Assembly (NCBI GenBank): GCA_030446715.1
Contig: JAUJMU010000003.1
Coordinates: forward strand, 62,001-126,000
DNA from: Cytophagales bacterium
GTDB lineage: Bacteria; Bacteroidota; Bacteroidia; Cytophagales; 172606-1
DNA: 64,000 nt
Direction of reading: 5' to 3'
The notes beneath the pieces are model-generated. The model saw only the letters and a program-made list of their open reading frames with translations. It was not told the DNA's origin and ran no database searches. The position numbers and the translations under genes are program-made. Below are positions 32,057 to 55,353 of this stretch, one piece after another; the first letter of the stretch is position 1; each line of letters opens with the position of its first letter.

Positions 32057-32734
32057 ATGAAAATACTGGTTGTTGAGGACGAACAGGAACTGCTGGACTC
32101 GGTCTGCACGTATCTGACGCAGGAGGGATACCGGTGTGAGCGGGCTGCCGATTTTGCCACGGCCAGCCAGAAGATTATCCTCTATTCTTACGACTGTTGC
32201 CTCATTGACATCGGTTTGCCGGACGGCAACGGGCTGAAGCTCATCCAGAAATTAAAGCAGTTACACCCCGGCACGGGCAACATCATCATTTCGGCCCGCC
32301 ACTCGCTGGATGACAAACTGAAGGGATTAGACATCGGCGCCGACGATTATCTGACAAAACCGTTTCACCTGCAGGAACTCAACGCCCGGGTAAAATCTAT
32401 CCTGCGCCGCCGGATGCAGGGCGGGGTAAGCGTAATTGAATTCAACGAGATCAAAGTCATGCCCGACACCTTTGAGGCCTGCGTGCAGGGGCAGCAACTG
32501 CAACTGACCAAAAAAGAATTTGATCTGCTGGTGTACCTGGTAACCAACCGCAACCGGGTAATTCCCAAGGACAACCTGGCCGAACACCTCTGGGGAGATT
32601 ACACAGACGATCTGAATTCCTTTGACTTCGTGTATACCCACATCAAGAACCTGCGCAGGAAGCTGCTTGAAAAGGGCGGGAAGGACTACCTGAAAACGAT
32701 TTACGGGGTGGGCTATAAATTCACCGACCATTGA
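32057..32734 (+). CDS. OmpR/PhoB-family response regulator
   Basis: 225 residues. Receiver domain 1-118 with acidic pocket E7/D8, phosphoacceptor Asp51 (CLIDIGLPDGN), Ser/Thr in IIISARH and Lys in YLTKPFH. The winged-helix DNA-binding domain (about 130-225) carries LTKKEFDLLVYLVTNRNRVI, SFDFVYTHIKNLRRKL and TIYGVGYKF. It is paired with the histidine kinase that follows; the stop and the kinase start overlap (TTGA). The nearest recognisable target is uncertain. Confidence 0.92.
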   Translation: MKILVVEDEQELLDSVCTYLTQEGYRCERAADFATASQKIILYSYDCCLIDIGLPDGNGLKLIQKLKQLHPGTGNIIISARHSLDDKLKGLDIGADDYLTKPFHLQELNARVKSILRRRMQGGVSVIEFNEIKVMPDTFEACVQGQQLQLTKKEFDLLVYLVTNRNRVIPKDNLAEHLWGDYTDDLNSFDFVYTHIKNLRRKLLEKGGKDYLKTIYGVGYKFTDH

Positions 32735-34986: not shown

Positions 34987-35067
34987 TGTTTCTCCGGATT
35001 CTGCCCGGGTACAGATTATCTGAATATGTACCCAGGGTTAAGGTTAACTTCCGGCTGTTGTTCCTGT

Positions 35068-35121
35068 GTTACATTCCGGTTATGGTTTTGTGAACATTAC
35101 CGGTAATGTTAAAAATTAACA
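35068..35121 (+). promoter_or_regulatory. Nested palindromes before the TonB receptor
   Basis: A perfect 18-bp palindrome AACATTACCGGTAATGTT (35093-35110) overlaps a second one, TGTTAAAAATTAACA (35107-35121). Just upstream, GTTAC (35068), GTTAT (35079) and GTGAA (35090) are spaced 11 bp apart; on the opposite strand these read GTAAC, ATAAC and TTCAC, weakly resembling the PHO-like arrays at 43679 and 49848. They lie 60-110 bp before the ATG at 35180. Confidence 0.5.
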
Positions 35122-35179: not shown

Positions 35180-38100
35180 ATGAAAAGGAAAGTTACCCTG
35201 CTAACCTGCCTGCTACTCGTGCTGCTATTGCGGCTGGCGGGAAATGAAATTGCCCTTTATGGTCAATCCACCAATGCAACCATCACCGGCGTAGTCAAAG
35301 ACGCGGCGGGTGCTCCTTTACCCGGCGCCACAGTAATTGTCCGCAATGAATCCACCGGTTTTCAAAGTGCCACTGCTACGAACACGGAAGGGACATTCGT
35401 GTTCCGGCAACTGCCCCTGGGCAACCCCTACACAGTTTCGGCTTCCTACGTGGGGTACAATGAGCAGAAAAAAACGGGTTTCTCCCTCAACCAGGGCAAC
35501 CGGCTGGAAGTAGACTTTACCCTGGAGCAGACTTCCACCCAACTCGATGAGATTGTAGTCACTGACCAGGGATTTTCCAAACAGGTGGAACAGAGGGGAG
35601 CCGCTACTTCCATTACCGAGAACCAGATCAAGACCCTGCCCCTGGAAGGGCGCAACTTCACCGACTTAACCCGCCTTTCACCTTTGCAGGGGGCAGGCTC
35701 TATCAACCTGGGCGGGCAGCGCCGTACTTCCACCAACATTACCATTGACGGGGCCAATGCGCGCAATCAGCTGCTGGCCGGAGAAATCGGGCAAGGGGCT
35801 TATTCCATTTCTCAGGAAGCGATCCGGGAGTTTGAGGTGGTCACCAACTCCTACGACGTAACCCAGGGCCGGCAAGGGGGCGGGGCCATCAATGCGGTCA
35901 CCAAAAGCGGAACGAACACCTTTACGGGCAGTGCCTTCCTCTACCACCGCAACAACCAACTCTCCAGCCCCTACGACATCCGGGGCGCGCGGCGGACGCA
36001 GGATTTTTACAATTACCAGTGGGGATTCAGTCTCGGCGGGCCTATCATAAAGGATAAAATGCACTTTTTTGTCGCTTTTGACCGGGAGGATGCCGGCAGC
36101 CCCCTTTTCATCACTGACATCCGCGAAGGAGACGAAAGGGAAGGAGACGAAAGACGGTTTGGCGTACGAAAAGATACGCTTGATAAAGCCATTGATATTG
36201 CCCGTCGATTGTACGGAGTGAGCAATGCCCAGCAGGTGGGGGAGTTTGCCCGCAAGACTACCACCAATACTTTGTTTGCACGGGTTGACTGGCAACTGAG
36301 CCCTAAGCACCGCTTAACCCTGCGCAATAACTACAGCAGTTTCAACAACCCTTTTGAAACAAGCGACAACTCCAGCATCAACATCCGGGAAGTATGGGCG
36401 GGTTTTACTTCCAATCAGAACAGTTTACTCTTGTCGCTCCGGTCGGCCTTCAGCAACAATTTGACCAATGAAATCAAGGTGCAGTTGCAGCGCAACGAGC
36501 GGGACTTTAAACCCAGTCCTGAACTTCCCGCTTCTAATATTCCCCGGGCCATCGTCACGCTGGTGTCACCCTTCCCGACCGAAGCCAATCCCGGGGCCAC
36601 CCAGTCGAAAACCTTTCAGTTCGGAGGGCAGCGCTTTACCCCTGAGTATACCTTAGACCGCCAGATCCATCTGATCAATACCACCTACCTGAGCCTTGGC
36701 AGATACAGCTTCACCTTCGGTACCGACAATATGCTTACCTTTCTGGAGACGCTGATCACCAACGAGCAGAACGGACGGTTTTTCTTCAACGGTTTGCAGA
36801 ATCTGGAGAATTTCCGCCCCTTCCGGTACGCCCGTGAAGTTCCCCTGCAGGGCGTTTCTCCCACCGTCAACCAGACCGTACTCGATATGGCTCTGTTTGC
36901 TCAGGTAGAGTTCAAACCCTGGCCGAACGTAAGCACTGAATTTGGTTTGCGGTACGATGCCACGGCTTTCCTGACCCCGGCCGATTACAATCCCGTAGTG
37001 GACCAGGAGTTAGGGATCCGCACCGACGTGAAACCCTCGGACTGGAACAACATTCAGCCCCGTTTCCAGCTTACCTGGAACATGGGCGGCCGCGACAGTG
37101 ACGTGCTCAAGATCGGCGGCGGGCTGTTCTCTTCCCAGCCCCATTACTACGCCCAGGTAAACAACATCCAGAATAGCGGCACTTTGCTGGGAGCCATTGA
37201 CGTGACGGGCAATCAGGTACCCACCCCCGATTTTATTGCGTACCGGAATGATCCGTCTACCGTGCCGGGAATTCCGCAGGGAGCCTCTTACATCTCTACG
37301 ATTAATTCGGTAAGTGAAGACTTCCAGGTGCCCACGACGATGAAGGCCAACATCAGCTACACTAAAATCATCGGCAACCGCCTTACAATCGGGCTGAACG
37401 GACTCATCAGCCGGACGTTCAACAACTACGTGTACCAGGAGCGTAACCTGGTGGATGAGCCCTACTTCCGCATCCCGGCCGAAGGGGACCGGGGGGTATT
37501 CGTGCCGGCCGGTACCATCACCAACGGCGGCGTGACCGACTGGCTGAACTCCCGCAAAACCACCCAGGTAGGCCGGGTACTGGAACTGACATCGGAAGGG
37601 ATACTGAACCAGATGGCCCTGGTGGTGGATGCCGAGGTGCGCATCGGCAAGGACGGCTACGTGAACGTAAGCTACACGGCAAACCGGGCCAAGGACAACT
37701 CCTCCTACAATTGCTGCGTGGCCAATACGGCTACGTTTCTGCCGGTCAAGGATGACCCGCGGGCGCTGAATTACGGCTTCTCGGATAACCACTTCGGTAG
37801 CAAAGTGGTACTGAGCGGCGCTACGCCCACCTGGAAAGGGTTTACGCTGGGAGCTACCTTTGCCGGTGATGCCGGCAGCCGTTATTCCTTCCACGTTGCC
37901 CGCACGGTGAGCGTCAACGGGGATTTCAACCTGGAAAATGACCTGGCCTACGTGTTTGACCCCAACAGTCCCGAGACGCCGGCTGACATTGCGGAGGGGA
38001 TCAATGAAATTCTGGGTGATCCCAATACGGCTGAAAGCGCCAAAGAGTACCTGAGAAACAATTTCGGACGCATTGCCGACCGGAACGGCGGCCGCAATCC

Positions 38101-38377
38101 GTTTGCGGCAACCGTGGATATACGGCTGATCAAATCCTTCCGGACTTTTGGCAGCCAGCGGTTGCAGCTGTCAGCGGATTTGTTTAACGCGGCCAACTTA
38201 CTCAACCGCGAATGGGGCCGAAATGCCAACCTGGGACGGAGACGGGAACTACTACGGGTGCAAGGCTTTGACCAGGCATTGCAGCAGTACACCTACCGGG
38301 TAGAAAGCGGTGCCGGGGTTAAACCGATCAATGGTACCCCCTGGCGTTTACAGCTGGGAGTCAGATACAGTTTCTGA
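35180..38377 (+). CDS. TonB-dependent receptor with carboxypeptidase-regulatory-like N-domain
   Basis: 1065 residues. Signal peptide to about 33. A CarboxypepD_reg domain (about 36-115: ITGVVKDAAGAPLPGATVIV, GYNEQKKTGFSL) precedes the plug (about 122-235: EIVVTDQGF, LPLEGRNFTDLTRLSPLQGA, INAVTKSGTN). The rest is the 22-strand barrel ending NGTPWRLQLGVRYSF with the typical C-terminal Phe. The layout resembles Oar-like/TonB-linked receptors that take up large substrates. No SusD follows. Instead a nucleotide pyrophosphatase/phosphodiesterase gene starts 87 bp downstream on the same strand, so the substrate may be phosphorus-containing (inference). Confidence 0.88.
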   Translation: MKRKVTLLTCLLLVLLLRLAGNEIALYGQSTNATITGVVKDAAGAPLPGATVIVRNESTGFQSATATNTEGTFVFRQLPLGNPYTVSASYVGYNEQKKTGFSLNQGNRLEVDFTLEQTSTQLDEIVVTDQGFSKQVEQRGAATSITENQIKTLPLEGRNFTDLTRLSPLQGAGSINLGGQRRTSTNITIDGANARNQLLAGEIGQGAYSISQEAIREFEVVTNSYDVTQGRQGGGAINAVTKSGTNTFTGSAFLYHRNNQLSSPYDIRGARRTQDFYNYQWGFSLGGPIIKDKMHFFVAFDREDAGSPLFITDIREGDEREGDERRFGVRKDTLDKAIDIARRLYGVSNAQQVGEFARKTTTNTLFARVDWQLSPKHRLTLRNNYSSFNNPFETSDNSSINIREVWAGFTSNQNSLLLSLRSAFSNNLTNEIKVQLQRNERDFKPSPELPASNIPRAIVTLVSPFPTEANPGATQSKTFQFGGQRFTPEYTLDRQIHLINTTYLSLGRYSFTFGTDNMLTFLETLITNEQNGRFFFNGLQNLENFRPFRYAREVPLQGVSPTVNQTVLDMALFAQVEFKPWPNVSTEFGLRYDATAFLTPADYNPVVDQELGIRTDVKPSDWNNIQPRFQLTWNMGGRDSDVLKIGGGLFSSQPHYYAQVNNIQNSGTLLGAIDVTGNQVPTPDFIAYRNDPSTVPGIPQGASYISTINSVSEDFQVPTTMKANISYTKIIGNRLTIGLNGLISRTFNNYVYQERNLVDEPYFRIPAEGDRGVFVPAGTITNGGVTDWLNSRKTTQVGRVLELTSEGILNQMALVVDAEVRIGKDGYVNVSYTANRAKDNSSYNCCVANTATFLPVKDDPRALNYGFSDNHFGSKVVLSGATPTWKGFTLGATFAGDAGSRYSFHVARTVSVNGDFNLENDLAYVFDPNSPETPADIAEGINEILGDPNTAESAKEYLRNNFGRIADRNGGRNPFAATVDIRLIKSFRTFGSQRLQLSADLFNAANLLNREWGRNANLGRRRELLRVQGFDQALQQYTYRVESGAGVKPINGTPWRLQLGVRYSF

Positions 38378-38464
38378 TTGTCCGGGCCGGAGACGCTGCA
38401 CTTATTCATTTAATATTTCTCTCTGTTTACTTCCATCCACGTTTCTGCCATAGATCTGCTGAAC

Positions 38465-39871
38465 ATGTCAACCGTTCGTACGCTGCTGCTGTATTCAGCC
38501 GGCTTTCTGCTGAACAGCCCCCTGCTGCTGCCCGTCCGGGCCCAGCCTGCCCGTCAGCCGCTGGCGGAACACGTTGTGATGATCTCAATTGATGGTTTAC
38601 GGCCTGAGTTCTACCTTGACTCCCGGTGGCCTGCCCCCTGGCTGCAGCAGATGGTGCAGGAGGGGGTGCATGCCCAGGCGGTACGGGGCGTGTTTCCTAC
38701 GGTCACTTATCCCTCCCATACCACCCTCATCACCGGGGCCCTGCCCATCCGGCACGGAATCTATTACAATTCCCCGTTTGAGGAAGGCGGTCAGACGGGT
38801 CGCTGGTACTGGGAATGGGAAAAGATCCGGGTAAAGACCCTGTGGCAGGCTGTGGAGGAAACCGGCCGGAAGAGTGCCAGCGTATACTGGCCGGTAACAG
38901 CCGGAGCTCCCGTTACATACAACGTGCCTGAAGTCTGGTCCCTTGATCCGAAAGAAGACCGCTTCTCTCCGGTGCGCGCCCAGGCCACCCCCAAAGGACT
39001 GGTTGAAGAGATAGAACGGGAAGCAACCGGCCGGCTGAGTGAAGAAAGGAGCCTGAACGGCGACTACCTGACCCGGGAAGATCGTTTCGGTGCCATGGCG
39101 GCTTATCTGCTGGAGACCTATAAACCTGCCTTCCTGACGGTGCACCTGGCCTCAGCCGATCATTTTCAGCACGAGCAGGGCCGGGAAGGTGTCCGGGTAA
39201 GGCAGGCTGTTGCTGCCGCGGACCGGGCAGTGGGACAGATCGTGGAGGCGGCCTACCGGGCCGGTATTGCAGAGCAGACTGCTTTTGTGATCGTGGGTGA
39301 CCACGGTTTTGTGGATATTCATTCCCAGCTCTGCCCCAACGTATGGCTTGCCCAGGCGGGGCTGATGGAAGATAAAAAAGACCGCGGCAACTGGCAGGCC
39401 GCTTTCCATACCTCCGGGGCCGCTGCTTTTCTGCAACTGAAGAATCCTGCGGATAAAAAAGCAGTGGCCCATGTCCGTCGTCTGCTTGAGAGCCGTCCTG
39501 ACCCGGAGAAAAAACTTTTCCGGATCGTTGAAAGGGCAGAGCTGGACAGGATCGGAGCTGATCCTGGCGTGCCGCTTGCCCTTACCCCGGTGCGGGGGGT
39601 ATCCTTTTCGGCTTCCCCCACAGGACCGGCAATCAAACCGGCAAAAGGTGGAACACACGGATACTTTCCTGACTTTCAGGATATCCATACCGGATTCATC
39701 GGCTGGGGTAAAGGCTTTAACCCGGGAGCTACCCTACCCATGATGGGGCTGGAAGATGTAGCACCCCTTGTGGCGGAACTCCTCGGCCTTTCTTTCAAGG
39801 CTCCCGATGGCGTGCTGTACCCCGGCTTGCTGATGTTGCCGCCTCCCAAAGAAACCGTCCGGACGAAGTAA
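38465..39871 (+). CDS. Ectonucleotide pyrophosphatase/phosphodiesterase (alkaline phosphatase superfamily)
   Basis: 468 residues with a signal peptide (to about 27). The two-zinc active site of NPP enzymes is visible: Asp in VVMISIDGLRP, nucleophile Thr in GVFPTVTYPSHTTLITGALP (one unbroken stretch of exactly that kind), Asp/His in SADHFQHEQG, DH in VGDHGF and the last His in GGTHGYFPD. NPPs cleave phosphodiester or pyrophosphate bonds in nucleotides or lipids. Exported, probably periplasmic or surface-located. The position 87 bp after the TonB receptor suggests co-transcription. Confidence 0.88.
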   Translation: MSTVRTLLLYSAGFLLNSPLLLPVRAQPARQPLAEHVVMISIDGLRPEFYLDSRWPAPWLQQMVQEGVHAQAVRGVFPTVTYPSHTTLITGALPIRHGIYYNSPFEEGGQTGRWYWEWEKIRVKTLWQAVEETGRKSASVYWPVTAGAPVTYNVPEVWSLDPKEDRFSPVRAQATPKGLVEEIEREATGRLSEERSLNGDYLTREDRFGAMAAYLLETYKPAFLTVHLASADHFQHEQGREGVRVRQAVAAADRAVGQIVEAAYRAGIAEQTAFVIVGDHGFVDIHSQLCPNVWLAQAGLMEDKKDRGNWQAAFHTSGAAAFLQLKNPADKKAVAHVRRLLESRPDPEKKLFRIVERAELDRIGADPGVPLALTPVRGVSFSASPTGPAIKPAKGGTHGYFPDFQDIHTGFIGWGKGFNPGATLPMMGLEDVAPLVAELLGLSFKAPDGVLYPGLLMLPPPKETVRTK

Positions 39872-40195: not shown

Positions 40196-40594
40196 TCAGC
40201 CCTGCGTAGCAATGTAGTTACGAATCGTTTCCAGTGAAGCATTGCCGGTAGAGCAGCCAAAATACCCATCCGGCCAGAACGTGTTTTCCTTCCAAAAGTG
40301 CTTCTTCAAAAATAGGCGGTGTTTCTGATAGAGGTGACAGGTGGACATACTTTTAAGGCGGTTCACTATATCGAAAGCCGAAAGCGCAGGAGGCGTATCA
40401 ATCAAGATGTGAATGTGGTCTCGGTCACTTTCCATCACGTCAATGGTGAATTTGCAGCGTTCACTGATGGAAAGGAATAGTGCCTTAATATCCTGTTCGA
40501 TTGCACCAGTGAGTAACTGCTTGCGGTACTTGACCACGAAAATGACGTGCAGCTTAATCAGATATTTGGAGTGACTGCCTGTATGATACTCCAT
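40196..40594 (-). CDS. tnpA: IS200-type Y1 transposase TnpA
   Basis: 132 residues from the ATG at 40594 (MEYHTGSHSKYLIKLHVIFV), the normal length. The HUH motif reads DHIHILID, and the catalytic Tyr lies in the C-terminal helix (ETIRNYIATQG). Both catalytic elements are present and the frame is intact, so the enzyme could be active. It cuts and joins single-stranded DNA at hairpin ends. A longer open frame upstream overlaps tnpB and was rejected. Confidence 0.88.
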   Translation of the reverse strand: MEYHTGSHSKYLIKLHVIFVVKYRKQLLTGAIEQDIKALFLSISERCKFTIDVMESDRDHIHILIDTPPALSAFDIVNRLKSMSTCHLYQKHRLFLKKHFWKENTFWPDGYFGCSTGNASLETIRNYIATQG

Positions 40595-40648
40595 TGAATA
40601 CTTATGCAAAAAGTTGCTATTTGTATAAGTATTAATTACTCTTAGGGG

Positions 40649-41813
40649 ATGAAGGCAATCCACAAAACGTACAAATTTCGCATCCAACCCACTGACGAAC
40701 AGGCAGTTTTGCTTGCCAGGCATTTTGGATGCAGCCGTTTTGTGTACAATCACTTTCTGGCTGAACGCAGCCGTTACTATCTGGAAAACAAGAAGGGGTT
40801 GAATTACTACGACAATGCCGCTTCGCTTACCCTGCTCAAAAAGGAAAAGCAGTGGCTAAAAGAAGTCAATTCGCAGGCGTTGCAGGCTACGCTAAAGCAT
40901 TTGGAAGGGGCCTGCAATAGTTTTTTCCGTAAGCAGACGGAGTTTCCCGCTTCAGATCCAAGCATTTCAAACAGGCGTTTCGGGTGCCGCAATTCAACCG
41001 CTTGCAAAACGGACGGTTGTACATACCCAAGTTCAGTGAGGGTATTGCTGTGAACATTCACCGACCAGTTGAAGGAAAGATTCTGTTTTGCACCCTGACT
41101 AAAACCCCAACGGGTAAATACTTCGCTTCGCTGACCTGTGAGGTGGAGCATAAGCCTTTACCGCCAGTGCAAAATATGGTAGGGGTGGATTTGGGTATTA
41201 AGTCCCTACTGGTGGATTCGGTCGGTAAGCCGTATGCCAACCTAAAGACTACTGCTAAGTACGCCAAACGGCTTAAAAAGCCCAAAGGTGGTTAAAGAAC
41301 AAACAGTTAGGGTCTGCCTCCCGCAACAGGCAGAAACGCAAGGTTGCCCGTATTCACGAAAAGATGGCTAATGTCCGGGAGAACAACTTGCACCAGATTA
41401 CCGCTACGCTAATCAAGGAAAACCAACTGATAGCCGTGGAAGATTTGGCAGTCAAGAACCTGATGCAGAACCGTAAGCTATCCAAAGCCATTGCCGATGT
41501 GAGTTGGGGTAAGCTGCTTACCCTGCTGGAATACAAGGCTCAGTGGAATGACAGGCAAGTGGTTAAGGTGGACCGCTTCTTTCCTTCTTCCAAAACCTGT
41601 ACCCATTGCGGTTGGGTCAACCAACGCCTTACCCTTGCTGACAGAGAGTGGACGTGTGGAAATGGGCATACAGTGGATAGGGACGTGAATGCAGCGCAAA
41701 ATATACTCAAACAGGCTCTAAACAGCCTCTCGGCGGGAACCGTCGAGTACACGGGTGGAGAACCGAAAACTCGCAAGAGGAAGGTACGTTCTGCGAAGCC
41801 CGAAGCCCCCTGA
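40649..41813 (+). pseudogene. tnpB: TnpB RNA-guided nuclease gene with two frameshifts
   Basis: Three consecutive frames form one TnpB. Frame 1 (from 40649) gives MKAIHKTYKFRIQPTDEQAV to RKQTEFP. Frame 2 (about 40950-41278) gives SKHFKQAFRVPQFNRLQ and GVDLGIKSLLVDS. Frame 3 (about 41279-41813) gives RNRQKRKVARIHEKM and onward. RuvC residues are all visible: Asp in GVDLGIK, Glu in AVEDLAVKNL, Asp in TVDRDVNAAQN. The zinc finger has CTHCG but its second half reads CGNGH, with only one Cys. Each shift equals one missing base (near 40950 in a C run, near 41278 beside GCCC). No full-length nuclease can be made unless these are sequence errors. TnpB normally uses an RNA from the right end of the element. 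Confidence 0.85.
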
Positions 41814-41971: not shown

Positions 41972-42951
41972 CTACCGGTTGGAGGATTTTTCCCAATCCG
42001 CTAACAGGTCAAGCGACTGTCTGGTTATTGACTCCAGGGCTTCCTGCGTGAGAAACGCCTGATGACCCGTCACCATCGCGTTTGGCAACCGCAACAGCTC
42101 CTCGATGAGCGGGTCGCGCTGACCGGTCCCGGACTTATCCTCAAAAAACAGATCGTGCTCATGTTCGTACACGTCGATCCCCAGATAGCCTAACTGCCCG
42201 TTTCTGAGCGCGCGGATGGCCTCCTGGTATTGAGGAGGGCACCCCGGCCGGTGTTAATGAGCATGGCACCGGGTTTCATCCTGGCAAACGTCTGGGCATT
42301 GAACAAACCTTGTGTCTCCCGGGTCAGCGGCAGGTGCAGCGAAACAACGTCGGCACGTTCCAGCAGGGCCTCTAGACTGACCATCTCGACCGGCACGGCC
42401 GACTCCCGTTGAGCCTGATCAGGCTTGTTGTCGAAGGCCAGCACGGTGCAGCCGAAGCCGGTCAGGATTTTAGCGAGCACTTGTCCGATGTTGCCGTATC
42501 CGACAATACCGGCGGTTTTGCCGTCCAGTTCGAAGCCCACCAGTTCGTTGGTCAACAGGAAATTACCTCCGCGGATCCGGTCAGTGGCCTGAATCAGGTG
42601 CCGGCCCAGCGCGAGCATCAGCGCGACGGCATGCTCGGCAATGGCACTGGGCGAGTAGCGGGGAATATTTTTAACCGTGATGCCTAGCTTTTCGGCCGCC
42701 TGGGTGTCGATGTGGTCCGTGCCCGCAGAACGCGTCACCAGGAACCTGATGCCTAGTTCACTCAGCTTTCTGAGCACTTTTTCCGAGGCGTCGTCTTTGC
42801 CCGAAATCAGGATGGCCCCGTAGCCGGCGGCCTGGCCGGCAGTCTGTTCACTCAGCGGGTCGGGCAGCAGCGTCAACTCGTGCTGACCGTGGTTGCCCTG
42901 GCGCAGGAGCGGCTCCTCGTAGGCTTCTACATTAAAGGCAATGGCTTTCAT
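41972..42951 (-). pseudogene. D-lactate dehydrogenase-like 2-hydroxyacid dehydrogenase, one frameshift
   Basis: From the ATG at 42951 (MKAIAFNVEAYEEPLL) the first 250 or so residues are intact: VTRSAGTDHIDTQAA (substrate Arg), SAIAEHAVALMLALGRHL, GIVGYGNIGQVLAKIL (NAD-binding), VSLHLPLT and INTGRGALLNT. At about 42217 the frame shifts: the next homologous residues, AIRALRNGQLGYLGIDVYEH with the catalytic Glu region and GHQAFLTQEA with the catalytic His, are in another frame ending at 41972. Restoring one C in the ACCAGG context makes a normal protein of about 326 residues. The reaction would be NADH-dependent pyruvate to D-lactate. Inactive as written, but the lesion is a single base. Confidence 0.82.
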
Positions 42952-43384
42952 AAGGAGGTTGATTTGTTGAATAGGTGTGTAAGTACCCGTCTGTAACGGA
43001 TCAAATAAAGTTAAGACCAAACCCGGGCAACAGTAAAAATTGTTGATTTGTTAATACCGGCGAAATGCCGGGGCAACACTGGCCGTTTACATTTGCAGCA
43101 TTCCTCATCATACTCCTGCTCTGCAAAACAGAGCTGCAAAGAGCACTGCCCCTGGCGGTGCTTTTTCTTTTGGCGGGAAATTATTGTAAAGGTGACTAAC
43201 CGCGCACGGACCATCCGGTGCTGATTTCCGGCAATGCTGTTAACCAAATGATAAAAGAAAGGTAACCTCTCCTGCGTGGCCGCTGACCCGCCATCCTGCT
43301 ACCTTTGGCCGGAAGAATTCCAACAACCATATTTGTATTTGTATGCTTTATTCAGTCAGTATCTATTTCAGGAAGGAAAAAGTG
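42952..43384. other. Intergenic region with a hairpin-rich segment
   Basis: No gene of normal size. It contains the candidate small RNA described separately (43057-43171) and a TACCTTTG at 43300-43307, matching the Bacteroidota -7 consensus and facing the small open frame at 43385. Confidence 0.45.
43057..43171 (+). ncRNA. Candidate small RNA: three hairpins and an intrinsic terminator
   Basis: CCGGC-GAAAT-GCCGG (43057-43071), GCTCTG-CAAAA-CAGAGC (43118-43134) and AGCACTGCC-CCT-GGCGGTGCT (43142-43162), followed by a U-rich run to 43171. A TACATTTG (43088-43095) could be a -7 element giving a transcript of about 70 nt from near 43100. No upstream plus-strand gene needs this terminator. No known RNA family is recognised. 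A 44-codon frame (43065-43199) overlaps and could be an alternative explanation. Confidence 0.35.
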
Positions 43385-43678: not shown

Positions 43679-43733
43679 TTAACAGAGATATAACCTTCCG
43701 GTAACGGGCCGGAAGAAGGATTTCCTCATTTTG
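43679..43733 (+). promoter_or_regulatory. PHO-box-like triple direct repeat before the phoD-like gene
   Basis: TTAAC (43679), ATAAC (43690) and GTAAC (43701) repeat at exactly 11-bp spacing. A -7-like TCATTTTG follows at 43726-43733, 25 bp after the start of the last repeat. PhoB/PhoP-type regulators bind direct repeats of this period: the cyanobacterial box is tandem TTAACC-like repeats, the Bacillus box TTAACA-like repeats. No site for a constitutive -33 element (TTTG) is seen, consistent with activator dependence. Confidence 0.55.
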
Positions 43734-43834: not shown

Positions 43835-46800
43835 ATGTTTACCAAAATACCCGTTACCCCGTTTTCTTCACTCCGGAGGAAACAAATCTTATGGCTCACC
43901 CTGAGCCTGTGTTTGTGGGCATTCACCCTTTCGGCGCAGCCAAAGTACGACCCGTTGCTGAAACCCTTTTACCACGGCGTTGCCTCGGGTGACCCGATGG
44001 AAGACCGGGTAATTATCTGGACCCGCGTAACGCCCGAAAAGGAGGGGCTGGTAACCGTAACGTGGAAAGTAGCCACCGACCCGGCGCTGTCTCAGGTGGT
44101 CAGCTCAGGCGTAGTCACCACCTCAGCGGAACGCGACTACACCGTGAAGCTGGACGTAACCGGGTTGCAACCCAGTACCACCTACTACTACGGCTTTACG
44201 GCGCTGGGCCGCAACTCCCTCACCGGCCGTACCAAAACGGTTCCTGTCGGCGACGTTTCGCAGTTGCGCTTCGCGGTGGTTTCCTGCAACAACTTCGAGG
44301 GCGGCTACTTCAACGCCTTCGGCCGGATTGCCGGCCGCAGTGACCTGGATGCCGTGATTCACCTGGGTGATTATATCTACGAACAGGCGCAGGGCCTGTA
44401 CGGCGCGCCCAGCCTCATCACCACCGGCGAAAGGGCGGTGGAGCCGAAAAAGGAAATCGTGGCACTGGACGACTACCGCCAGCGGTACGCCTGGTACCGG
44501 CTCGACCCCGACCTGCGCCGGGCTCACCAGCAGCACCCGTTCATTACCGTGTGGGACGACCACGAATCGGCCAATGACTCCTACAGGGACGGAGCCGAAA
44601 ACCACCAGCCGGAAACGGAAGGCCCGTGGTCGGTCCGCAAGGAAGCCTCCCGGCGCGTGTACGACGAGTGGATGCCCATCCGGGGCAATGCCTCGCCCAT
44701 TTACCGGGTAAAACCCTTCGGCAACCTCGTGGACCTGATCAGGATAGATACCCGCATCGAGGGCCGTGACGAGCAGATCAACGACGTGACCAACCCGGCT
44801 CTCTACGCCCCGGACCGCACCATGCTCGGCCCCACGCAGCGGGAGTGGCTTTTTGAAAGACTGAAAACGTCTAAAGCCAAATGGAAGATCATCGGCAATC
44901 AGGTGATTTTCAGTGAGTTCAACGTGGGCTGGGCGGCTGCCGCGGCCCCGAACCTCGGCACCCCGGCGCAGCTCGAAAGCATTTTTCTCGACATCTGGGA
45001 CGGCTACCCGGCAGAGCGGAAACGGGTGACTGATTTTATCACCAGGGAGAAAATAGACAATGTCGTAATTCTCACCGGCGACTTTCACTCTTCCTTTGCC
45101 TTCGACGTGGCCCCTGATCCGTCGGTGTTCAGCGTGCCGGGCCAACTGCCCAATTACGACCCGGCCACCGGCAAGGGTTCGGTGGCCGTAGAATTTGCCA
45201 CCCCCAGTATCTCCTCGGCCAACTTCGATGAAAACCTGAGTCCGCAGCAGGCGGCCTTGTTTGAGGCGCTGTTCAACCAACCACTGCCGCCGGGGGCGGG
45301 TTCCTTTGCCGGCGTGAACCCGAACCCGCACCTGAAGTACGTGGACCTTGACCGGCACGGCTACTTTATCCTGGACCTGACGCCCGAAAGAGCCCAGGCC
45401 GACTGGTACTTTGTAAACAGCATACTCAAGCCCGACAACGGCGAAAAATTCGATGCCGGCTTCTTTACCGTGTCCGGCCAGAACCACCTGCAGCAAGCCG
45501 CTGCCGCCAGTGCGCCAAAAGTATCGGTGCCGGCACCGGCACCGGGTACTCCCATCACGGCCGGCACCGCTTCCGGACTGGACATCCGGCTGCTCGGCAC
45601 CTACGCATCCGGCATTTATGACGATGGCGGCGCTGAAATTCCCGCCTACGACCCGGGCTCTAAACGCCTCTTTGTGGTCAACGCCCGGGGGACGGTGGAT
45701 GTGCTGGACATTTCAGATCCGGCCAGCCCGGCCAAACTGTTTGCCATTGACATCAAAGCCATCACCGGCGGCACGCCCAACAGCGTAGACGTCAAAAACG
45801 GGCTGGTGGCCGTAGCCGTCGAACTCAGGGACGGCAGCGGCAACCAGGCACCCGGACTGGTGGCGTTTTTTCCGGCAGATATGGCCGCTGCCCCGTCAGC
45901 GCCGCAGCAGACCGTTCCCGCAGGCAACCTGCCCGACATGGTTACCTTCACGCCGGATGGCAAAAAGCTGCTCGTAGCCAATGAAGGCGAACCCGGGCCG
46001 ACAACCAATCCGGAGGGGTCGGTTTCCATAATTGATCTTTCGGGCGGCGTTGCCGGTGCAACCGTCCGGACCGTCGGCTTTGCGGCGTGGAACGGCCGGG
46101 AAAATGAACTCCGCGCCAAAGGCGTCCGGATTTTCCCCGGTCAGCAGGCGGCTCAGGACCTTGAGCCCGAATCCATTGCCGTAGCTCCCGACGGCAAAAC
46201 GGCCTTTGTGACCCTGCAGGAAGCCAACGCCTTTGCCGTAATTGACATTGCCGGTGCCGCCCTGCTGGATATTATTCCGCTGGGTTATAAAGACCACAGC
46301 CGGGGGCCGGCCAGTCTGGAGCAGTATAATTTCAATGAGCCGCCCATCGGCAAAAGAGCCGGCGGAGAAGACATCCTTTTCGGCGGACTTTCGGGCCTGT
46401 TCTTTGAGAAGGAGGAAAACGGAAAATCCATCTTCGTGACTGTGCCCGACCGGGGCCCCAACGGCGACGAGTCTCCCGCGGGCCGGCCGTTCCTGAAGCC
46501 GGATTACGTGGCTGAGGTATTCCGTTTTTCCCTCGACAAAGCCAGCGGGCAGATCACCATTCTGGAAAAAATCCCGTTGCGGCGGATGGACGGCAACGCG
46601 GAGAAAGCCATTACCGGTTTTCCCAATATTCCCGGCGTGGACGAAAAGCCGATTGACGAAAAGGGCAACCCGCTGCCTTATGATCCGTTCGGCGCTGATC
46701 TGGAGGGAATAGCCGTGGCCGCCGACGGCACCTTCTGGATGGTGGATGAATACCGCCCGGCGATTTACCATTTCAGCAAGGCGGGTATGCTGCTGCACCG

Positions 46801-49633
46801 CTACGTACCGAAAGGCACCGCTGCCCTTGCCGGGCAGCCGGAGGGTACTTTTGGCGAAGAAACCTTGCCCGCGGAGTACGGCAGGCGGCGATCCAACCGC
46901 GGTTTTGAGGCAGTGGCGCTGGACACCGACAAGGGTATTCTGTACGCCTTTATCCAGACACCGCTGGCCAATCCCAACCGGGCCGCTTCCGATGCCTCCG
47001 GCGTGATCCGGATGCTGGGCATTGATCCCGCCACGGGTCAGCCCGTTGCCGAATACATTTATTCCCTGGAAAAACCTGCCCTGCGGCTGACGGCAGTGGA
47101 TAAAATAGGTGACGCCGTGTACGACGCCAAAACCAAAGCTTTCTACGTGATCGAACGGGATGATCTGGCCCGGCCCGAAAACAAAAAATACATTTTCAAA
47201 GTGAATCTGACCGGTGCCACCAACCTGCTGGCACCGGACGCACCGGCCCTTTCTTCCGGCAAAACCCTTGAGCAGCACACGCTGGACGAACTGGCGGCCC
47301 TCGGTATCCGTACGGCTTTCAAAACGAAGGTGGTCAACCTGCCTTCCCTCGGTTACCTGCCCGGCGACAAACCCGAAGGACTGGCCCTGCTGCCCGATGG
47401 GTCGTTTGCCGTCCTGAACGACAACGATTTCGGCCTCGGCGGTCCGGAGCTTTCAGCGGTTGGGCTGGGCATTATTTCCTTCGGAGAAGGCAATACGCTG
47501 GATGCCAGTGACAATGACAACGCAATCAGCCTCCGCAACTGGCCGGTGCTCGGGATGTACATGCCTGACGGCGTGGCTTCTTACCAGGCAAATGGCCAGA
47601 CGTACTACATTACGGCCAATGAAGGCGATGCCCGCAGCGAAGACCGGCGCGTAAGTTCGCTTACCCTTGACCCGGTCGCCTTCCCGGATGCCTCGCTGAA
47701 AAACCCTGACAGACTGGGCCGTCTGAACGTTTCAAATAGCAACGGTGACCTTGACGGTGACGGTGATTATGATCAGCTCTACGCCTACGGTGCCCGGTCG
47801 TTTTCGGTCTGGGACAGCTTCGGCAATCAGGTTTTCGACAGCAGCGACGATCTGGAAAGAATCACCGCCGCCCGGTATCCCGGATTCTTCAACGCGTCCA
47901 ACACCAGCAACACCTTCGACAACCGCAGCGACGACAAGGGACCCGAGCCCGAGGGAGTCACCATCGGGCAGATCAACGGCCGCACCTATGCGTTTATCGG
48001 GCTGGAGCGGACCGGCGGCTTTATGGTCTACGACGTGACCAGTCCCGGTCAGGCGCAGTTTGTGGCGTACACCAACAACCGCAACTTTGAGGGTGTTCCC
48101 CGGGAAGGCACTGCCGGTGATCTGGGTCCGGAGGGGCTGATTTTCATTTCCGAAGCCGATAGCCCCAACGGACAGGCACTGATGGTGGTGGCCAACGAAG
48201 TCAGTGGCACCACGTCCATTTTCGGCGTGAGCCAGCCGACCGCCGTACTGGACTTTACCCTCGTGAATGCCGATACGGAAGGAGACATTGCGCCCCTCAC
48301 CGACGGCGCGGTCATTGACTACGCCAGACTGACGACCACCCGGCTGAACATCCGGGCCAACGTGAGGCCGGAAACGGTGGGCAGTGTGGTTTTCACCCTC
48401 AACGGTGAGATTTACAGCACGGAAAACAGCCCCTTTTACACCTTTGCCGGTGACCGGGAAGGCGACTACCAGCCGTGGACGCCGGCACCGGGCCAGTACA
48501 CCCTCACCGCTACGCCATTCGCCGAGGCGGCCGGCGGGGGATCGGCCGGCGTACCGCTGACGATTACTTTCAACGTTGTCAACTCCGCAAAAATCGCCCG
48601 GCTTGCCCTGGTCAACGCCCGGACTTCGGCAGATATTCAGACCATCAGAGACGGTGACGTGCTGAACCTGCGGACTTTGCCCACCCGACGCATCAATGTA
48701 CGGGCCGGCGCCGACCCCGAAACGGTGGGCAGCGTGGTGTTTACGCTGAAGATTGAAGACAACACCCAGATCCGGCAGGTGGAAAATCTGCCGCCTTACG
48801 CGCTGTTCGGCAACGTGGGGCTCACCGCCGATTATAACCCGTACCTGCTCCGGGAGGGCAGCTACCAGCTTACCGTTACGCCCTACGCCGAATCGTACGG
48901 ACAGGGGGCACCGGGTGAAACCTCGGTTGTCAACTTTACGGTGGTGAATGAGCCGGGCGTGGCCCGCCTGCTGCTGGTAGACATGAACACCGACCGCATC
49001 CTGACCGAAATCCGGGACGGAGATGTGATCAACGCGCAGGCGCTGGGCATTACCCCGGCCAGCAATCTGAACATTCAGGCGGTAACGGATCCGGGCCGCG
49101 TGGAAAAAGTCGTATTCGGTTTTGCCGGTAAAACAGGTTATTTCACCGATGACCGGCGGCCTTACGAACTGTTCGGCAATGCCGGTTCAGCAGCTTCCTC
49201 CTGGCGGCCGGCAGCCGGTACCTACGGCTTAAGAGCCACGCCTTTTTACAAGGCTAAGGGTAAGCTGGTAAACGGGACCGCACTGGCGGTGAATTTTACC
49301 ATTACCGGCAATGCCGCAGTAGCCGGTGCCGCCCGCACCGCCGCCGCGGATAGCGGACCAGGGGAAGCAGTAGCCGGCAAGCCGCTTGCGCTTTCCGTGT
49401 CGCCCAACCCGGTACGCGACGGGCTGACGATCCGGTTCGGGGAGCCGGTTTCCGGTGAGGTGCTGGTGATGGTGTACGACATCATGGGCCGCAAGACGTA
49501 CTTTGAGCGGGACTTCACGCTGGAGGGGCAGGATCAGGTGCAGGTGAATCTGTCGGGTCTGGCCAGCCGGTTCTACCTGCTGAAGGTCATCACCCCATCC
49601 GGCCGGCAGACGGTCCGGATTATAAAAGAGTAG
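43835..49633 (+). CDS. Giant T9SS-secreted phosphoesterase: PhoD + choice-of-anchor I + phytase-like esterase fusion
   Basis: 1932 residues. Signal peptide (to about 33, FTLSAQ). PhoD N-domain about 42-135 (YHGVASGDPMEDRVIIWTRV). PhoD metallophosphatase about 140-560: VVSCNN, IHLGDYIYEQ, VWDDHESAND, LTGDFHSSFAFD supply metal ligands. A beta-propeller-like choice-of-anchor I region starts about 582 (LDIRLLGTYASGIYDDGGAE) and appears to be interrupted by an esterase-like phytase domain (about 849-1165, GGLSGLFFEKEENG, VPDRGPNGDE), resuming to about 1465. Three repeats of about 120 residues follow (starts about 1469, 1585, 1706; each with a DG..I/L..L core and TLTATPF-like end). The T9SS type A sorting domain is at about 1852-1932 (SVSPNPVRDGLTIRF, MVYDIMGRK). 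PhoD enzymes cleave phosphomono- and diesters, so the protein likely attacks complex organophosphates at the cell surface. Confidence 0.85.
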   Translation: MFTKIPVTPFSSLRRKQILWLTLSLCLWAFTLSAQPKYDPLLKPFYHGVASGDPMEDRVIIWTRVTPEKEGLVTVTWKVATDPALSQVVSSGVVTTSAERDYTVKLDVTGLQPSTTYYYGFTALGRNSLTGRTKTVPVGDVSQLRFAVVSCNNFEGGYFNAFGRIAGRSDLDAVIHLGDYIYEQAQGLYGAPSLITTGERAVEPKKEIVALDDYRQRYAWYRLDPDLRRAHQQHPFITVWDDHESANDSYRDGAENHQPETEGPWSVRKEASRRVYDEWMPIRGNASPIYRVKPFGNLVDLIRIDTRIEGRDEQINDVTNPALYAPDRTMLGPTQREWLFERLKTSKAKWKIIGNQVIFSEFNVGWAAAAAPNLGTPAQLESIFLDIWDGYPAERKRVTDFITREKIDNVVILTGDFHSSFAFDVAPDPSVFSVPGQLPNYDPATGKGSVAVEFATPSISSANFDENLSPQQAALFEALFNQPLPPGAGSFAGVNPNPHLKYVDLDRHGYFILDLTPERAQADWYFVNSILKPDNGEKFDAGFFTVSGQNHLQQAAAASAPKVSVPAPAPGTPITAGTASGLDIRLLGTYASGIYDDGGAEIPAYDPGSKRLFVVNARGTVDVLDISDPASPAKLFAIDIKAITGGTPNSVDVKNGLVAVAVELRDGSGNQAPGLVAFFPADMAAAPSAPQQTVPAGNLPDMVTFTPDGKKLLVANEGEPGPTTNPEGSVSIIDLSGGVAGATVRTVGFAAWNGRENELRAKGVRIFPGQQAAQDLEPESIAVAPDGKTAFVTLQEANAFAVIDIAGAALLDIIPLGYKDHSRGPASLEQYNFNEPPIGKRAGGEDILFGGLSGLFFEKEENGKSIFVTVPDRGPNGDESPAGRPFLKPDYVAEVFRFSLDKASGQITILEKIPLRRMDGNAEKAITGFPNIPGVDEKPIDEKGNPLPYDPFGADLEGIAVAADGTFWMVDEYRPAIYHFSKAGMLLHRYVPKGTAALAGQPEGTFGEETLPAEYGRRRSNRGFEAVALDTDKGILYAFIQTPLANPNRAASDASGVIRMLGIDPATGQPVAEYIYSLEKPALRLTAVDKIGDAVYDAKTKAFYVIERDDLARPENKKYIFKVNLTGATNLLAPDAPALSSGKTLEQHTLDELAALGIRTAFKTKVVNLPSLGYLPGDKPEGLALLPDGSFAVLNDNDFGLGGPELSAVGLGIISFGEGNTLDASDNDNAISLRNWPVLGMYMPDGVASYQANGQTYYITANEGDARSEDRRVSSLTLDPVAFPDASLKNPDRLGRLNVSNSNGDLDGDGDYDQLYAYGARSFSVWDSFGNQVFDSSDDLERITAARYPGFFNASNTSNTFDNRSDDKGPEPEGVTIGQINGRTYAFIGLERTGGFMVYDVTSPGQAQFVAYTNNRNFEGVPREGTAGDLGPEGLIFISEADSPNGQALMVVANEVSGTTSIFGVSQPTAVLDFTLVNADTEGDIAPLTDGAVIDYARLTTTRLNIRANVRPETVGSVVFTLNGEIYSTENSPFYTFAGDREGDYQPWTPAPGQYTLTATPFAEAAGGGSAGVPLTITFNVVNSAKIARLALVNARTSADIQTIRDGDVLNLRTLPTRRINVRAGADPETVGSVVFTLKIEDNTQIRQVENLPPYALFGNVGLTADYNPYLLREGSYQLTVTPYAESYGQGAPGETSVVNFTVVNEPGVARLLLVDMNTDRILTEIRDGDVINAQALGITPASNLNIQAVTDPGRVEKVVFGFAGKTGYFTDDRRPYELFGNAGSAASSWRPAAGTYGLRATPFYKAKGKLVNGTALAVNFTITGNAAVAGAARTAAADSGPGEAVAGKPLALSVSPNPVRDGLTIRFGEPVSGEVLVMVYDIMGRKTYFERDFTLEGQDQVQVNLSGLASRFYLLKVITPSGRQTVRIIKE

Positions 49634-49811: not shown

Positions 49812-49847
49812 GGAAAGGAAATTATTTAATATCCCGGCAACCATCTT

Positions 49848-49903
49848 GTAATGATTTGATAACTGATGATTAACGTCTTTTCTGATCCGTGTGGATAGCT
49901 TTG
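49848..49903 (+). promoter_or_regulatory. PHO-box-like triple repeat and -7 element before susC
   Basis: GTAAT (49848), ATAAC (49859) and TTAAC (49870) are spaced exactly 11 bp apart. An exact TAnnTTTG match, TAGCTTTG, lies at 49896-49903, 26 bp after the start of the last repeat. The geometry is nearly the same as at 43679-43733. No -33 TTTG is present at the normal distance. Confidence 0.55.
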
Positions 49904-50104: not shown

Positions 50105-53100
50105 ATGAAAAGACGTGTACAAAAGAAAGGCTGGCAAAGCCTGATCCGCATCGGACTCCTGCATTTTGTGCTGACAGCCCCGCTTGCACCCACGGTGCCG
50201 GCTCAGGAGCCGGCCACCCAAACCAGTCAGCCCAGGGACCTGGTCGTCAGGGGAACCGTGCTGGACGCCGGCACCGGAGAACCGCTGCCGGGCGTAGCCG
50301 TGGTTGTAAAAGGCACTCAGCGGGGCACTGCCACCAATAGCGCCGGCGCGTACGAAATTGCCCTGTCCGATCCCGGCGCAGTGCTGGTATTCAGTTTTGT
50401 GGGTTACCTGCCCCAGGAGGTTCCGGTAGGCAATCGTACCCAGCTGGACCTGACGCTGCAGATTGATACCAAAGCCCTCAGCGAGGTGGTGGTGGTCGGC
50501 TACGGTACCCAGAAAAAAGTGAACCTGACCGGTGCCGTGGATCAGGTAACCGGCGACGTGCTCCAGAACCGGTCCGTACCCAACCTCACCCAGGGCTTGC
50601 AGGGGGTGATTCCCAACCTGAATCTGGTGCCCCGGGACGGAAAACCCATTCAATCTCCCGCTTATAATATCAGAGGCACGACTTCCATCGGGCAGGGAGG
50701 CAACGCCCTGGTGCTGATTGATAACGTGGAAGGGGATCCCAGCCGGCTCAATCCCAACGATATTGCCAGCATCACGGTGCTGAAAGATGCCGCGTCAGCC
50801 GCTATTTACGGGGCAAGGGGGGCGTTCGGGGTGGTACTCATCACCACCAGGAACCCGGTAAAAGACAAAACCAGTATTTCCTACTCCTGGAATCAGTCAA
50901 TCAAAAGCCCGACGGCCGTGCCGGATTTTGTGACCGACGGATACCTGTTTTCCAGCATGTTCAACGAATCATGGACGGCATGGAACAACTACTCACAGAC
51001 GCCCCAGAACGTGAACAAAACGGTGCGGTTTTCTCCGGCTTATCTAGCGGAGGCCGAACGCCGGGCCAATGATCCAAGCCTGCCTAAAACTGACGTGGGC
51101 CCCAACGGGGAATACGTGTATTACGAGAACATGGACTGGTACCGGGAGCTGTATAAAGACAATACCAGTGCCACCGAACATAATCTCTCTTTTTCGGGCA
51201 GCAGCGGCAAAGCGGATCTCTACGTGACGGGCCGGTATTTCGGGCAGAAGGGGCTGTTCCGCTACAACTCCGATGATTACAAACTGCTGAGTTTCCGGGT
51301 GAAGGGCTCCATTCAGATCTATCCGTGGCTGACCATCTCCAACAACGCCGACTATTCTGCCATGACCTATCATAACCCGCTGAACGTGGGCGAAGGAGGC
51401 GGCATCTGGCGGAACATCGGCGATGAAGGCCACACCATGGTGCCGATGTTTAACCCTGACGGTACGCTGACCTACTCGGCTGCTTATACGGTGGGCGATT
51501 TCTGGTACGGCAAAAACGGCATTGACATGAGCCGCCGCGTATTCCGGAACACGGCCGGGTTTGCCACGCAATTTTTCAACGATCAGTTCCGCGTCAAGGG
51601 TGACTTTACCTTTCAGAACACGGACAACAACGAAACCAGAACCCGGGTGCCGGTGCCCTACAGCCGGATACCAGGCGTAATCGAATACGTGGGCAATAAC
51701 ACCAACGACATCCGCAAGCTCAACCGCGAAACCCAGTACCTGACCACCAACCTGTACAGCGAATACGAACCCCGGCTGGAAGGAAATCACTACTTCAAAG
51801 GTTTGCTTGGCTTCAACTATGAACAGTCTACCTTTACGGGTCTGGAAGCCTTGCGGAACGGGCTGATTTTCCCCGATGCGCAGGACATCAGCCTGGCCTT
51901 GGGCCAGTCCATCGTGACCGACGGTGAGTATGAGAAGTGGGCCATTGCCGGCGGCTTCTACCGGCTCAACTACGCCTTCCGCGACAAATATCTGCTTGAA
52001 CTGAATGGCCGCTACGACGGCTCGTCTAAATTTCCTGCCAGCCAGCGGTTTGCCTTCTTCCCCTCCGTGTCGGCCGGCTGGCGGATTTCCAATGAATCAT
52101 TCTGGAAAGTCTCCGACCGGCTCATCAGTGAGCTGAAAATCAGGGCTTCTTATGGTTCACTGGGAAATGGCAACATTGCTTCGTACGCTTTCCAGGAGCA
52201 ATTCCGGATTACTCAGTCCAGCCGGGTTCTTAACGGCGTACGGCCCCAGCAGACGGGTGTGCCCGGTGTGCTGCCAAACGGCCTTACCTGGGAAACCTCT
52301 ACCACGCAAAACCTTGGCCTGGACTTTGGAATGCTGTCAAACCGCCTGACATTTTCGGGAGATGCCTACATCCGCAAGACAACCGATATGTTTACGGTGG
52401 GTGTGTCGCTGCCGGCTGTATTCGGAGCGGCTGTACCCCGGGGCAACTACGCCGATCTGAGAACCACCGGCTGGGAAGCTGTACTTGGCTGGCAGGACGG
52501 ATTCAAGGTAGCTTCCAAGCCATTTAATTACAACGTCAGATTCACCCTTGCCGACTACCAGGCAGAGATCACCAAATACAATAATCCCGAAAAAAGACTA
52601 TCCGATTACTACGCAGGCCAGAAGGTGGGTGAAATCTGGGGGTACGTTACGGAAGGCTTTTTTACTTCGCCCGAAGACATTACCAACTCACCCAAACAAA
52701 CTCTGTTCAGGGCCTCCACCAGCGGACAGTGGCTGCCGGGAGACATCAAATTCCGGGATGTAAACGGAGACGGGGTAATCAACAACGGGGCCAACACGGC
52801 AGATGATCCCGGTGACCGGATTGTGATCGGCAATGCCTCCCCCCGCTACACGTACGGAATCATGCTGGGCGCCGACTGGAACAACTTCTTTTTCTCCACC
52901 TTTTTTCAGGGCGTAGGCAAGCAGGACTGGTGGCCGGGCCGGGAGGCAGCTACTTTCTGGGGCCAGTACAACCGGCCCTACAACAAAATCCCAACCTGGC
53001 AGCTGGGCAATATCTGGTCCGAGGAAAACCCGGATGCCTACCTGCCCCGCTACCGCGGCTATACCGCCGAGAACAGTGCCGGCGTACTCCGCTTTGAGCA

Positions 53101-53383
53101 GACCCGGTACCTGCAGAATGCCGCTTACATCCGGCTGAAGAACATCCAGATCGGGTACAACCTGCCCGAAGGCCTGATCAGTAAAGCAGGCATGGGCAAT
53201 GCAAGGGTATACCTGACCGGCGAAAACCTCTGGTCGTGGTCTCCGCTCTACCGGCGCAGCAAAGATCTGGATGTGGAAAGCATCGGAGGGTCTGACCGGG
53301 AGCTTACCAACGGCACAAATGGCAACGGCAACAATTATCCGATTCTCAGAAGCTTCACGGCCGGATTAGCCGTCACCTTCTAG
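50105..53383 (+). CDS. SusC/RagA-family TonB-linked outer-membrane receptor
   Basis: 1092 residues. N-terminal export signal (about 1-37). CarboxypepD_reg-like domain about 48-125 (VVRGTVLDAGTGEPLPGVAV, FSFVGYLPQEVPVG). The SusC signature LSEVVVVGYGTQKKVNLTGA is followed by the plug (NIRGTTSIGQGGNALVLID, ITVLKDAASAAIYGARGAFG) and a long barrel ending FTAGLAVTF. With SusD it forms a lidded active importer for oligomeric nutrients. Next to phosphoesterases rather than glycoside hydrolases, its cargo is probably phosphorylated or nucleotide-like (inference). The susD gene follows after 50 bp. Confidence 0.93.
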   Translation: MKRRVQKKGWQSLIRIGLLHFVLTAPLAPTVPAQEPATQTSQPRDLVVRGTVLDAGTGEPLPGVAVVVKGTQRGTATNSAGAYEIALSDPGAVLVFSFVGYLPQEVPVGNRTQLDLTLQIDTKALSEVVVVGYGTQKKVNLTGAVDQVTGDVLQNRSVPNLTQGLQGVIPNLNLVPRDGKPIQSPAYNIRGTTSIGQGGNALVLIDNVEGDPSRLNPNDIASITVLKDAASAAIYGARGAFGVVLITTRNPVKDKTSISYSWNQSIKSPTAVPDFVTDGYLFSSMFNESWTAWNNYSQTPQNVNKTVRFSPAYLAEAERRANDPSLPKTDVGPNGEYVYYENMDWYRELYKDNTSATEHNLSFSGSSGKADLYVTGRYFGQKGLFRYNSDDYKLLSFRVKGSIQIYPWLTISNNADYSAMTYHNPLNVGEGGGIWRNIGDEGHTMVPMFNPDGTLTYSAAYTVGDFWYGKNGIDMSRRVFRNTAGFATQFFNDQFRVKGDFTFQNTDNNETRTRVPVPYSRIPGVIEYVGNNTNDIRKLNRETQYLTTNLYSEYEPRLEGNHYFKGLLGFNYEQSTFTGLEALRNGLIFPDAQDISLALGQSIVTDGEYEKWAIAGGFYRLNYAFRDKYLLELNGRYDGSSKFPASQRFAFFPSVSAGWRISNESFWKVSDRLISELKIRASYGSLGNGNIASYAFQEQFRITQSSRVLNGVRPQQTGVPGVLPNGLTWETSTTQNLGLDFGMLSNRLTFSGDAYIRKTTDMFTVGVSLPAVFGAAVPRGNYADLRTTGWEAVLGWQDGFKVASKPFNYNVRFTLADYQAEITKYNNPEKRLSDYYAGQKVGEIWGYVTEGFFTSPEDITNSPKQTLFRASTSGQWLPGDIKFRDVNGDGVINNGANTADDPGDRIVIGNASPRYTYGIMLGADWNNFFFSTFFQGVGKQDWWPGREAATFWGQYNRPYNKIPTWQLGNIWSEENPDAYLPRYRGYTAENSAGVLRFEQTRYLQNAAYIRLKNIQIGYNLPEGLISKAGMGNARVYLTGENLWSWSPLYRRSKDLDVESIGGSDRELTNGTNGNGNNYPILRSFTAGLAVTF

Positions 53384-53433
53384 TCCGTTGATCCTGTACA
53401 CATCACTACAACATTTATCCATCTGAAACAGAC

Positions 53434-55209: not shown

Positions 55210-55242
55210 CCGGGGCTGGGCGAAATATGCTATGTATACAGT

Positions 55243-55296: not shown

Positions 55297-55353
55297 ATCT
55301 CATCTTTGGGTCACTTCTCAATCTTCTGATCAATTTTCAACAATTACTACTAC

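Follow-up and report, generated by a model that had tools for sequence, protein, structure and literature searches.

Three direct repeats (TTAACAGAGAT, ATAACCTTCCG, and GTAACGGGCCG; positions 43679–43711, forward strand) with an 11-bp period lie upstream of a gene for a secreted PhoD fusion protein in the window, i.e., the whole 64,000-nucleotide stretch of Cytophagales DNA that was analyzed. This element is very likely a real site for a regulator of the PhoB family, and it probably represents a Bacteroidota PHO box, for which regulator binding and induction are predicted. As stated in a preliminary description of this DNA, the words TTAAC (43679–43683), ATAAC (43690–43694), and GTAAC (43701–43705) are spaced by exactly 11 bp, so that the site has the two or more direct repeats at an 11-bp period that mark PHO boxes. 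The downstream gene (43835–49633, forward strand) begins 130 to 156 bp past the triple repeat and encodes a 1932-residue protein with PhoD_N, PhoD, choice_anch_I, and Phytase-like domains and a type IX sorting tail (Pfam and NCBIfam).

A search for the exact pattern TAACN7TAACN7TAAC gave a single match in the 64-kb window and none in 100 dinucleotide shuffles. When up to two mismatches are allowed, the window contains 10 matches, compared with 2.25 expected, and no shuffle reached 10. Upon varying the period (P) from 6 to 20, six TAAC triples with no more than one mismatch were found at P = 11 and none at any of the 14 other periods. With at most two mismatches, the counts were 10 at P = 11 and 0 to 7 at the other periods.

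The six period-11 triples overlap in part and make up five places in the window, four of which adjoin phosphatase or phosphodiesterase operons, as judged from the genes found there. In addition to the site before the PhoD fusion, a second site (CAAC/TAAT/TAAC/TAAC, 11-bp period; 49838–49874, forward strand) precedes an operon (50105–56196, forward strand) encoding a SusC-like receptor (50105–53383), SusD (53434–55209), and an Exo_endo_phos protein (55354–56196). The third site (TTAT/TAAC/TAAC/TAAA, 11-bp period; 58314–58350, reverse strand) is located 70 to 106 bp before the ORF of a 666-residue alkaline phosphatase (PF00245; 56244–58244, reverse strand). A fourth array (TCAC/TAAC/TAAC/CAAC; 35057–35093, reverse strand) is reversed relative to the downstream gene, and its role for the operon that follows, encoding an outer-membrane receptor (35180–38377) and a type I phosphodiesterase (38465–39871; Pfam, whole operon 35180–39871, forward strand), is uncertain. 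The fifth, weaker array (TAAC/TAAA/TAAC; 43241–43266, forward strand) has no clear downstream gene. Between the phosphodiesterase and PhoD operons, ORFs at 40196–41813 resemble, by eye, TnpA and TnpB of the IS200/IS605 type in pieces, and a 2-hydroxyacid dehydrogenase ORF at 42190–43020 has an end that appears cut short or frameshifted.

Upstream regions of phosphate genes were compared across other genomes. For PhoD, the best 80 of 353 loci, from named genomes, were used, leaving 77 after removal of near-identical upstream regions. Pairs of TTAA upstream of the 80 loci are most frequent at distances of 11 bp (15 pairs) and 22 bp (11 pairs), vs 0 to 7 at the other distances between 4 and 40 bp. 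The nearest PhoD orthologue among these 80 (L112; 87% identical) has a perfect triple at the same place, and its −7 region holds nearly the same CATTTTGCCCCGCATTTCC stretch. The perfect triple before the nearest orthologue is seen at L112 and at L204, an L112-type PhoD locus, and arrays close to the perfect triple were found at the near-orthologues L113, L114, L115, and L130. When an array was scored as a triple with at least 10 of 12 matches at period 11, 12 of the 77 PhoD upstream regions contained one, compared with 0 to 4 at the other periods from 7 to 15; the remaining 65 lack a triple scoring 10.

The class Bacteroidia was sampled with 119 genomes, of which 69 had a match to porin_O_P and 96 a match to PBP_like_2, and 30 loci of each kind were read, picked by match score and not by site. 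Triples are present in 13 of 29 porin_O_P upstream regions (one near-identical region was dropped), spanning 10 families, and in 8 of 30 PstS-type upstream regions, spanning 8 families; other periods gave 0 to 2 triples in these two sets. DnaK upstream regions from the same sample served as control and contained none (0/30), which gives one-sided Fisher values of 1.7e-5 for porin_O_P, 0.0023 for PstS-type, and 0.015 for PhoD genes. Upstream regions of genes neighboring the targets, which had served as the first control, contained a triple in 13 of 185 cases, including those of a DUF47-like gene and of a second gene resembling PstS, as judged by sequence. In this wider version of the scan proposed in the preliminary description, which supports the suggested PHO box, the array is commoner before phosphate porins, PstS-type genes, and PhoD orthologues than before controls, but alkaline phosphatase is an exception. 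Among 30 alkaline phosphatase loci of the order (77 genomes with a match), a triple was found in one, which is the window's own. In 20 of these 30, the match is confined to the C-terminal half of the query, so that other genes may be involved; despite these partial matches, the missing array counts as evidence against a PHO box. Across 39 relatives, the exact TTAAC triple (19 rows, approximately 15 places, vs 5 for the reversed pattern) precedes a mixed set of genes. Among them are a VTC gene (L209), a gene for a phosphate porin (L196), and the L112-type PhoD at L204, but also genes that by sequence resemble carB, polysaccharide deacetylase, and kinase genes.

Scans of the source genome gave a less pronounced picture. 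The exact triple occurs four times genome-wide, vs two for the reversed pattern, and the one-mismatch triple 35 times vs 25, a modest excess. The strict box, i.e., two repeats starting with TTAAC followed by a perfect TAnnTTTG, has no match in the source genome. Thirty-four of the 35 one-mismatch places were classified, an overlapping second place in L363 being left out. Eight of these 34 are located within ORFs, of which at least two are apparently spurious, compared with 12 of 25 in the reversed control, and 11 of 34 vs 5 of 25 lie outside ORFs with an ORF in the same direction within 330 bp, all of these being rough counts because ORFs were called longest-first with spurious frames included. 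None of the control's five downstream genes is a phosphatase by Pfam (two of the five have no Pfam match). Sites in the source genome also precede a GDPD gene (L371), an Exo_endo_phos gene (L370), and, at a distance of approximately 600 bp, a GDPD-phytase gene (L361). No phosphate gene was seen near the exact matches L005 and L007. Loci L007/L380 of this genome and L192 of the same genus carry TTAAC arrays by what is apparently the same gene, with no phosphate link seen.

The arrays are related in position to the promoter. Promoters of Bacteroidota have the −7 consensus TAnnTTTG, and a perfect match to it is a feature of these promoters and not a defining feature of PHO boxes generally. The −7-like element TCATTTTG (43726–43733, forward strand) begins 25 bp past the last repeat start, as the preliminary description had it, with its TTTG 28 bp past the last TAAC start; its match to TAnnTTTG, however, is short of one position (C for A). 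A perfect −7 element, TAGCTTTG (49896–49903, forward strand), is present before the SusC operon, its TTTG lying 29 bp from the start of the last TAAC, and before the alkaline phosphatase gene the offset of TTTG is 21 or 41. Elsewhere in the source genome, a perfect −7 element lies at 18 at L373, which precedes a gene for a protein without a Pfam match, and at 30 at L366, whereas an in-phase perfect element is absent at the five other sites examined (L361, L367, L370, L371, and L374).

Every TTTG within approximately 50 bp past the last TAAC was counted at 33 sites of the Pho sets. The offsets cluster at 18, 29, and 40 bp, i.e., one helical turn apart, with 17 of 26 TTTG words at offset 7 modulo 11 and 23 of 26 within one base of it. 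When porin and PstS-type sites were each limited to one per family label, 30 sites with 22 TTTG words remained; 14 of these words are exactly in phase and 20 within one base, and an in-phase TTTG is found at 14 of the 30 sites. The corresponding binomial values (approximately 4e-10) are too generous because they assume independence. Over the set of sites, the array thus has a fixed helical phase to the promoter element, and the PhoD-fusion site, at 28, is one base off. Perfect TAnnTTTG elements are rare in the Pho sets (2/33); the signal is therefore carried by the TTTG half. A weight matrix gave TTAACATT as the unit consensus of the array.

These data bear on the idea that the repeat is a chance product of AT-rich intergenic sequence. 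Such an origin would agree with the modest excess in the source genome and with the lack of the array at most PhoD orthologues, but at one mismatch or less only the 11-bp period is populated in the window, the nearest PhoD orthologue has the perfect triple in the same position, and the arrays keep phase with TTTG, so that chance appears extremely improbable as the explanation.

The TTAAC word itself is used more widely. A scan of the 119 genomes for TTAACN7TAACN20-22TAnnTTTG gave 80 matches, vs 10 for the reversed pattern, with none in the source genome, and 30 of the 80 loci were read. Three (L283, L284, and L299) precede a PhoU_div (DUF47) gene and then a Pit-like gene (L283 by Pfam, the others by sequence), and one (L277) precedes a PhoB-like regulator that is 54% identical to L041, the PhoB homologue of the source genome discussed later. 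Two (L274 and L275) have a TTAAC pair and TAnnTTTG before MoxR-like genes of the Bat operon type (by sequence). Approximately 11 adjoin membrane kinases that, from their position and sequence, are taken for RprX, and here the four words have 11-10-11 spacing where counted; at L273, L276, L282, L286, L287, L288, L289, L294, L296, L298, and L300, and thus in many genomes of the class, four TTAAC words and TAnnTTTG are divergent from the RprX-like gene. An NCBIfam scan of one such kinase (L288, incomplete) named no RprX model. The remaining loci precede various genes. The four-word arrays beside RprX-like genes are probably an RprY autoregulatory box. The TTAAC word is therefore shared by several regulators of the PhoB family in this phylum, and a TTAAC array alone is no proof of Pho control; it is spacing and gene context that separate the regulators sharing this word.

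Which regulator would bind the site before the PhoD fusion was assessed from the at least four PhoB/OmpR-family regulators that the source genome encodes. The nearest to PhoB is L041, with 224 bits for TIGR02154 (cut-off 296) and 221 bits for NF053854 (cut-off 270), both below the cut-offs. The kinase that follows L041 scores best with the PnpS and PhoR models, also below their cut-offs. Comparison of the L041 DNA-binding domain with solved structures matched Escherichia coli PhoB (1gxp, E 3.5e-18), with other family members scoring higher. L041 contains the helix RTVDVHIRK, which resembles that of PhoB. No array scoring 11 was found around the L041 operon (L379). Another regulator, L042, is RprY-like (334.5 bits of 370; NCBIfam). 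The window itself encodes an OmpR-type regulator (32057–32731), followed by a PorY-family kinase (402.9 bits, cut-off 350; the pair spans 32057–34056), beside the phosphodiesterase operon; this regulator was rejected as PhoB because its kinase matches PorY and its own PhoB score is 149.7 bits.

Given this number of regulators, the site could belong to another PhoB/OmpR-family member, of the RprY type, the regulator at 32057, or a general PhoP/MoxR-type regulator, with the link to phosphate being incidental. The arrays divergent from RprX-like kinases and those before MoxR genes, a known target of Riemerella anatipestifer PhoP, speak for this option. Yet the array before the PhoD fusion comprises three words with 11-11 spacing, in contrast to the four words with 11-10-11 spacing found next to rprX-like genes. 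Moreover, its enrichment at porin, PstS-type, and PhoD genes points to phosphate, and L041 is the one regulator of the four with the PhoB-type helix. We consider control by another family member unlikely, and a Pho site read by the PhoB homologue the better reading.

Known systems support comparison with a PHO box. In cyanobacteria, the SphR box is built from three or more 8-bp repeats of the sequence CTTAACCT, separated by linkers of 3 bp (PMC1906773). It shares with the present arrays the TTAAC core, three or more direct repeats, the 11-bp period, and the association with phosphatase and pst genes (PMC1906773); here, the flank is ATT instead of CT, the −7 element is TAnnTTTG-like, and the regulator would be a Bacteroidota homologue. 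The E. coli box, with at least two 8-bp direct repeats, 3-bp linkers, and approximately 10 bp to the −10 element (PMC1906773), is similar in its 8 + 3-bp direct repeats close upstream of a promoter element but differs in its core, CTGTACTA, and in the sigma-70 −10 element. RprXY-associated arrays of Bacteroidota likewise combine TTAAC repeats with a downstream TAnnTTTG; they differ in their 11-10-11 spacing and their place beside rprX-like genes, and their assignment to RprY is itself tentative.

Within the phylum, DAP-seq of R. anatipestifer PhoP yielded the motif TTTAACA; this regulator binds its own promoter and moxR, and the motif was likened to that of ArcA (PMC9603813). The phylum, core word, and OmpR/PhoB family are shared with the site studied here, whereas the available part of that report does not describe an 11-bp array, coupling to −7, or a phosphate regulon (PMC9603813). 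For Bacteroides fragilis, an EMSA with a 512-bp fragment showed binding of PhoB to the pstC promoter, and pstC expression depends on PhoB; this is likewise a case of Bacteroidota PhoB, but no box is defined in the part of the source considered (PMC3547664). A search of open-licence PMC full text gave no definition of a Bacteroidota PHO box. The preliminary description knew of no defined Bacteroidota version, but a motif of this kind is partly in print with the Riemerella motif; the coupling to −7 and the phylum consensus are the new parts. Genes induced in Flavobacterium johnsoniae at low phosphate include those for SusCD-like pairs, phosphodiesterases, TonB receptors, and PhoB (PMC8115612), an inventory resembling the array-marked operons described here; the words motif, promoter, and Pho box are absent from the main text of that study (PMC8115612).

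Regarding mechanism, we infer the identity of the regulator, the activation, and the low-phosphate signal as follows. The site would be bound by a response regulator of the PhoB/OmpR family, for which L041, the PhoB homologue encoded elsewhere in the genome, is the likeliest candidate. Under phosphate limitation, its phosphorylated form would occupy the 11-bp repeats in head-to-tail order, with a single subunit on each and all of them on the same side of the helix. In this position, it would substitute for the −33 element and bring the Bacteroidota sigma factor to the −7 element at 43726, which would switch on the secreted PhoD/phytase fusion and the neighboring phosphatase and receptor operons. 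Alternatively, the PhoB homologue might bind as a repressor or at a mixed site. Deletion of phoPR in R. anatipestifer raises pstS 8-fold (PMC5399024), which is the opposite of simple activation, and with TTTG 18 bp from the last TAAC in several sets, a bound protein could crowd the polymerase. A repressor or mixed site is nonetheless quite improbable, given that B. fragilis pstC requires PhoB and that the in-phase 18/29/40 spacing resembles the placement of an activator.

Extending the preferred reading, activation by the PhoB homologue, to other genomes leads to a proposition that could go either way, namely that a phylum-wide PHO box, (TTAACATTnnn)n with n of 2 to 4, is read by a PhoB homologue, lies 18, 29, or 40 bp from the TTTG of the −7 element, and replaces the −33 element, and that where PstC is missing, as in the present lineage, the targets of this box are type IX-secreted phosphatases and import through TonB/SusCD and not the Pst transporter. 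The source genome gave no match to PstC at E 0.001, and its single PBP_like_2 protein is encoded within an ExbD-like cluster (judged by sequence). Bacteroidota are prominent in phosphorus mobilization in the rhizosphere, and their low-phosphate regulon in this context is known from expression data (PMC8115612). With a usable box and its promoter spacing, the regulon could be predicted for any sequenced member of the phylum, and it would become apparent how an activator of the PhoB family operates at the unusual promoters of Bacteroidota. Two gene arrangements were also observed: at L377, a gene for a PstS-type binding protein neighbors ExbD-like genes, the genome giving no match to PstC, and at L242, in a genome of the class, a porin-like gene, a PstS-type gene, a TAAC array, and DUF47-like and Pit-like genes follow each other in a row.
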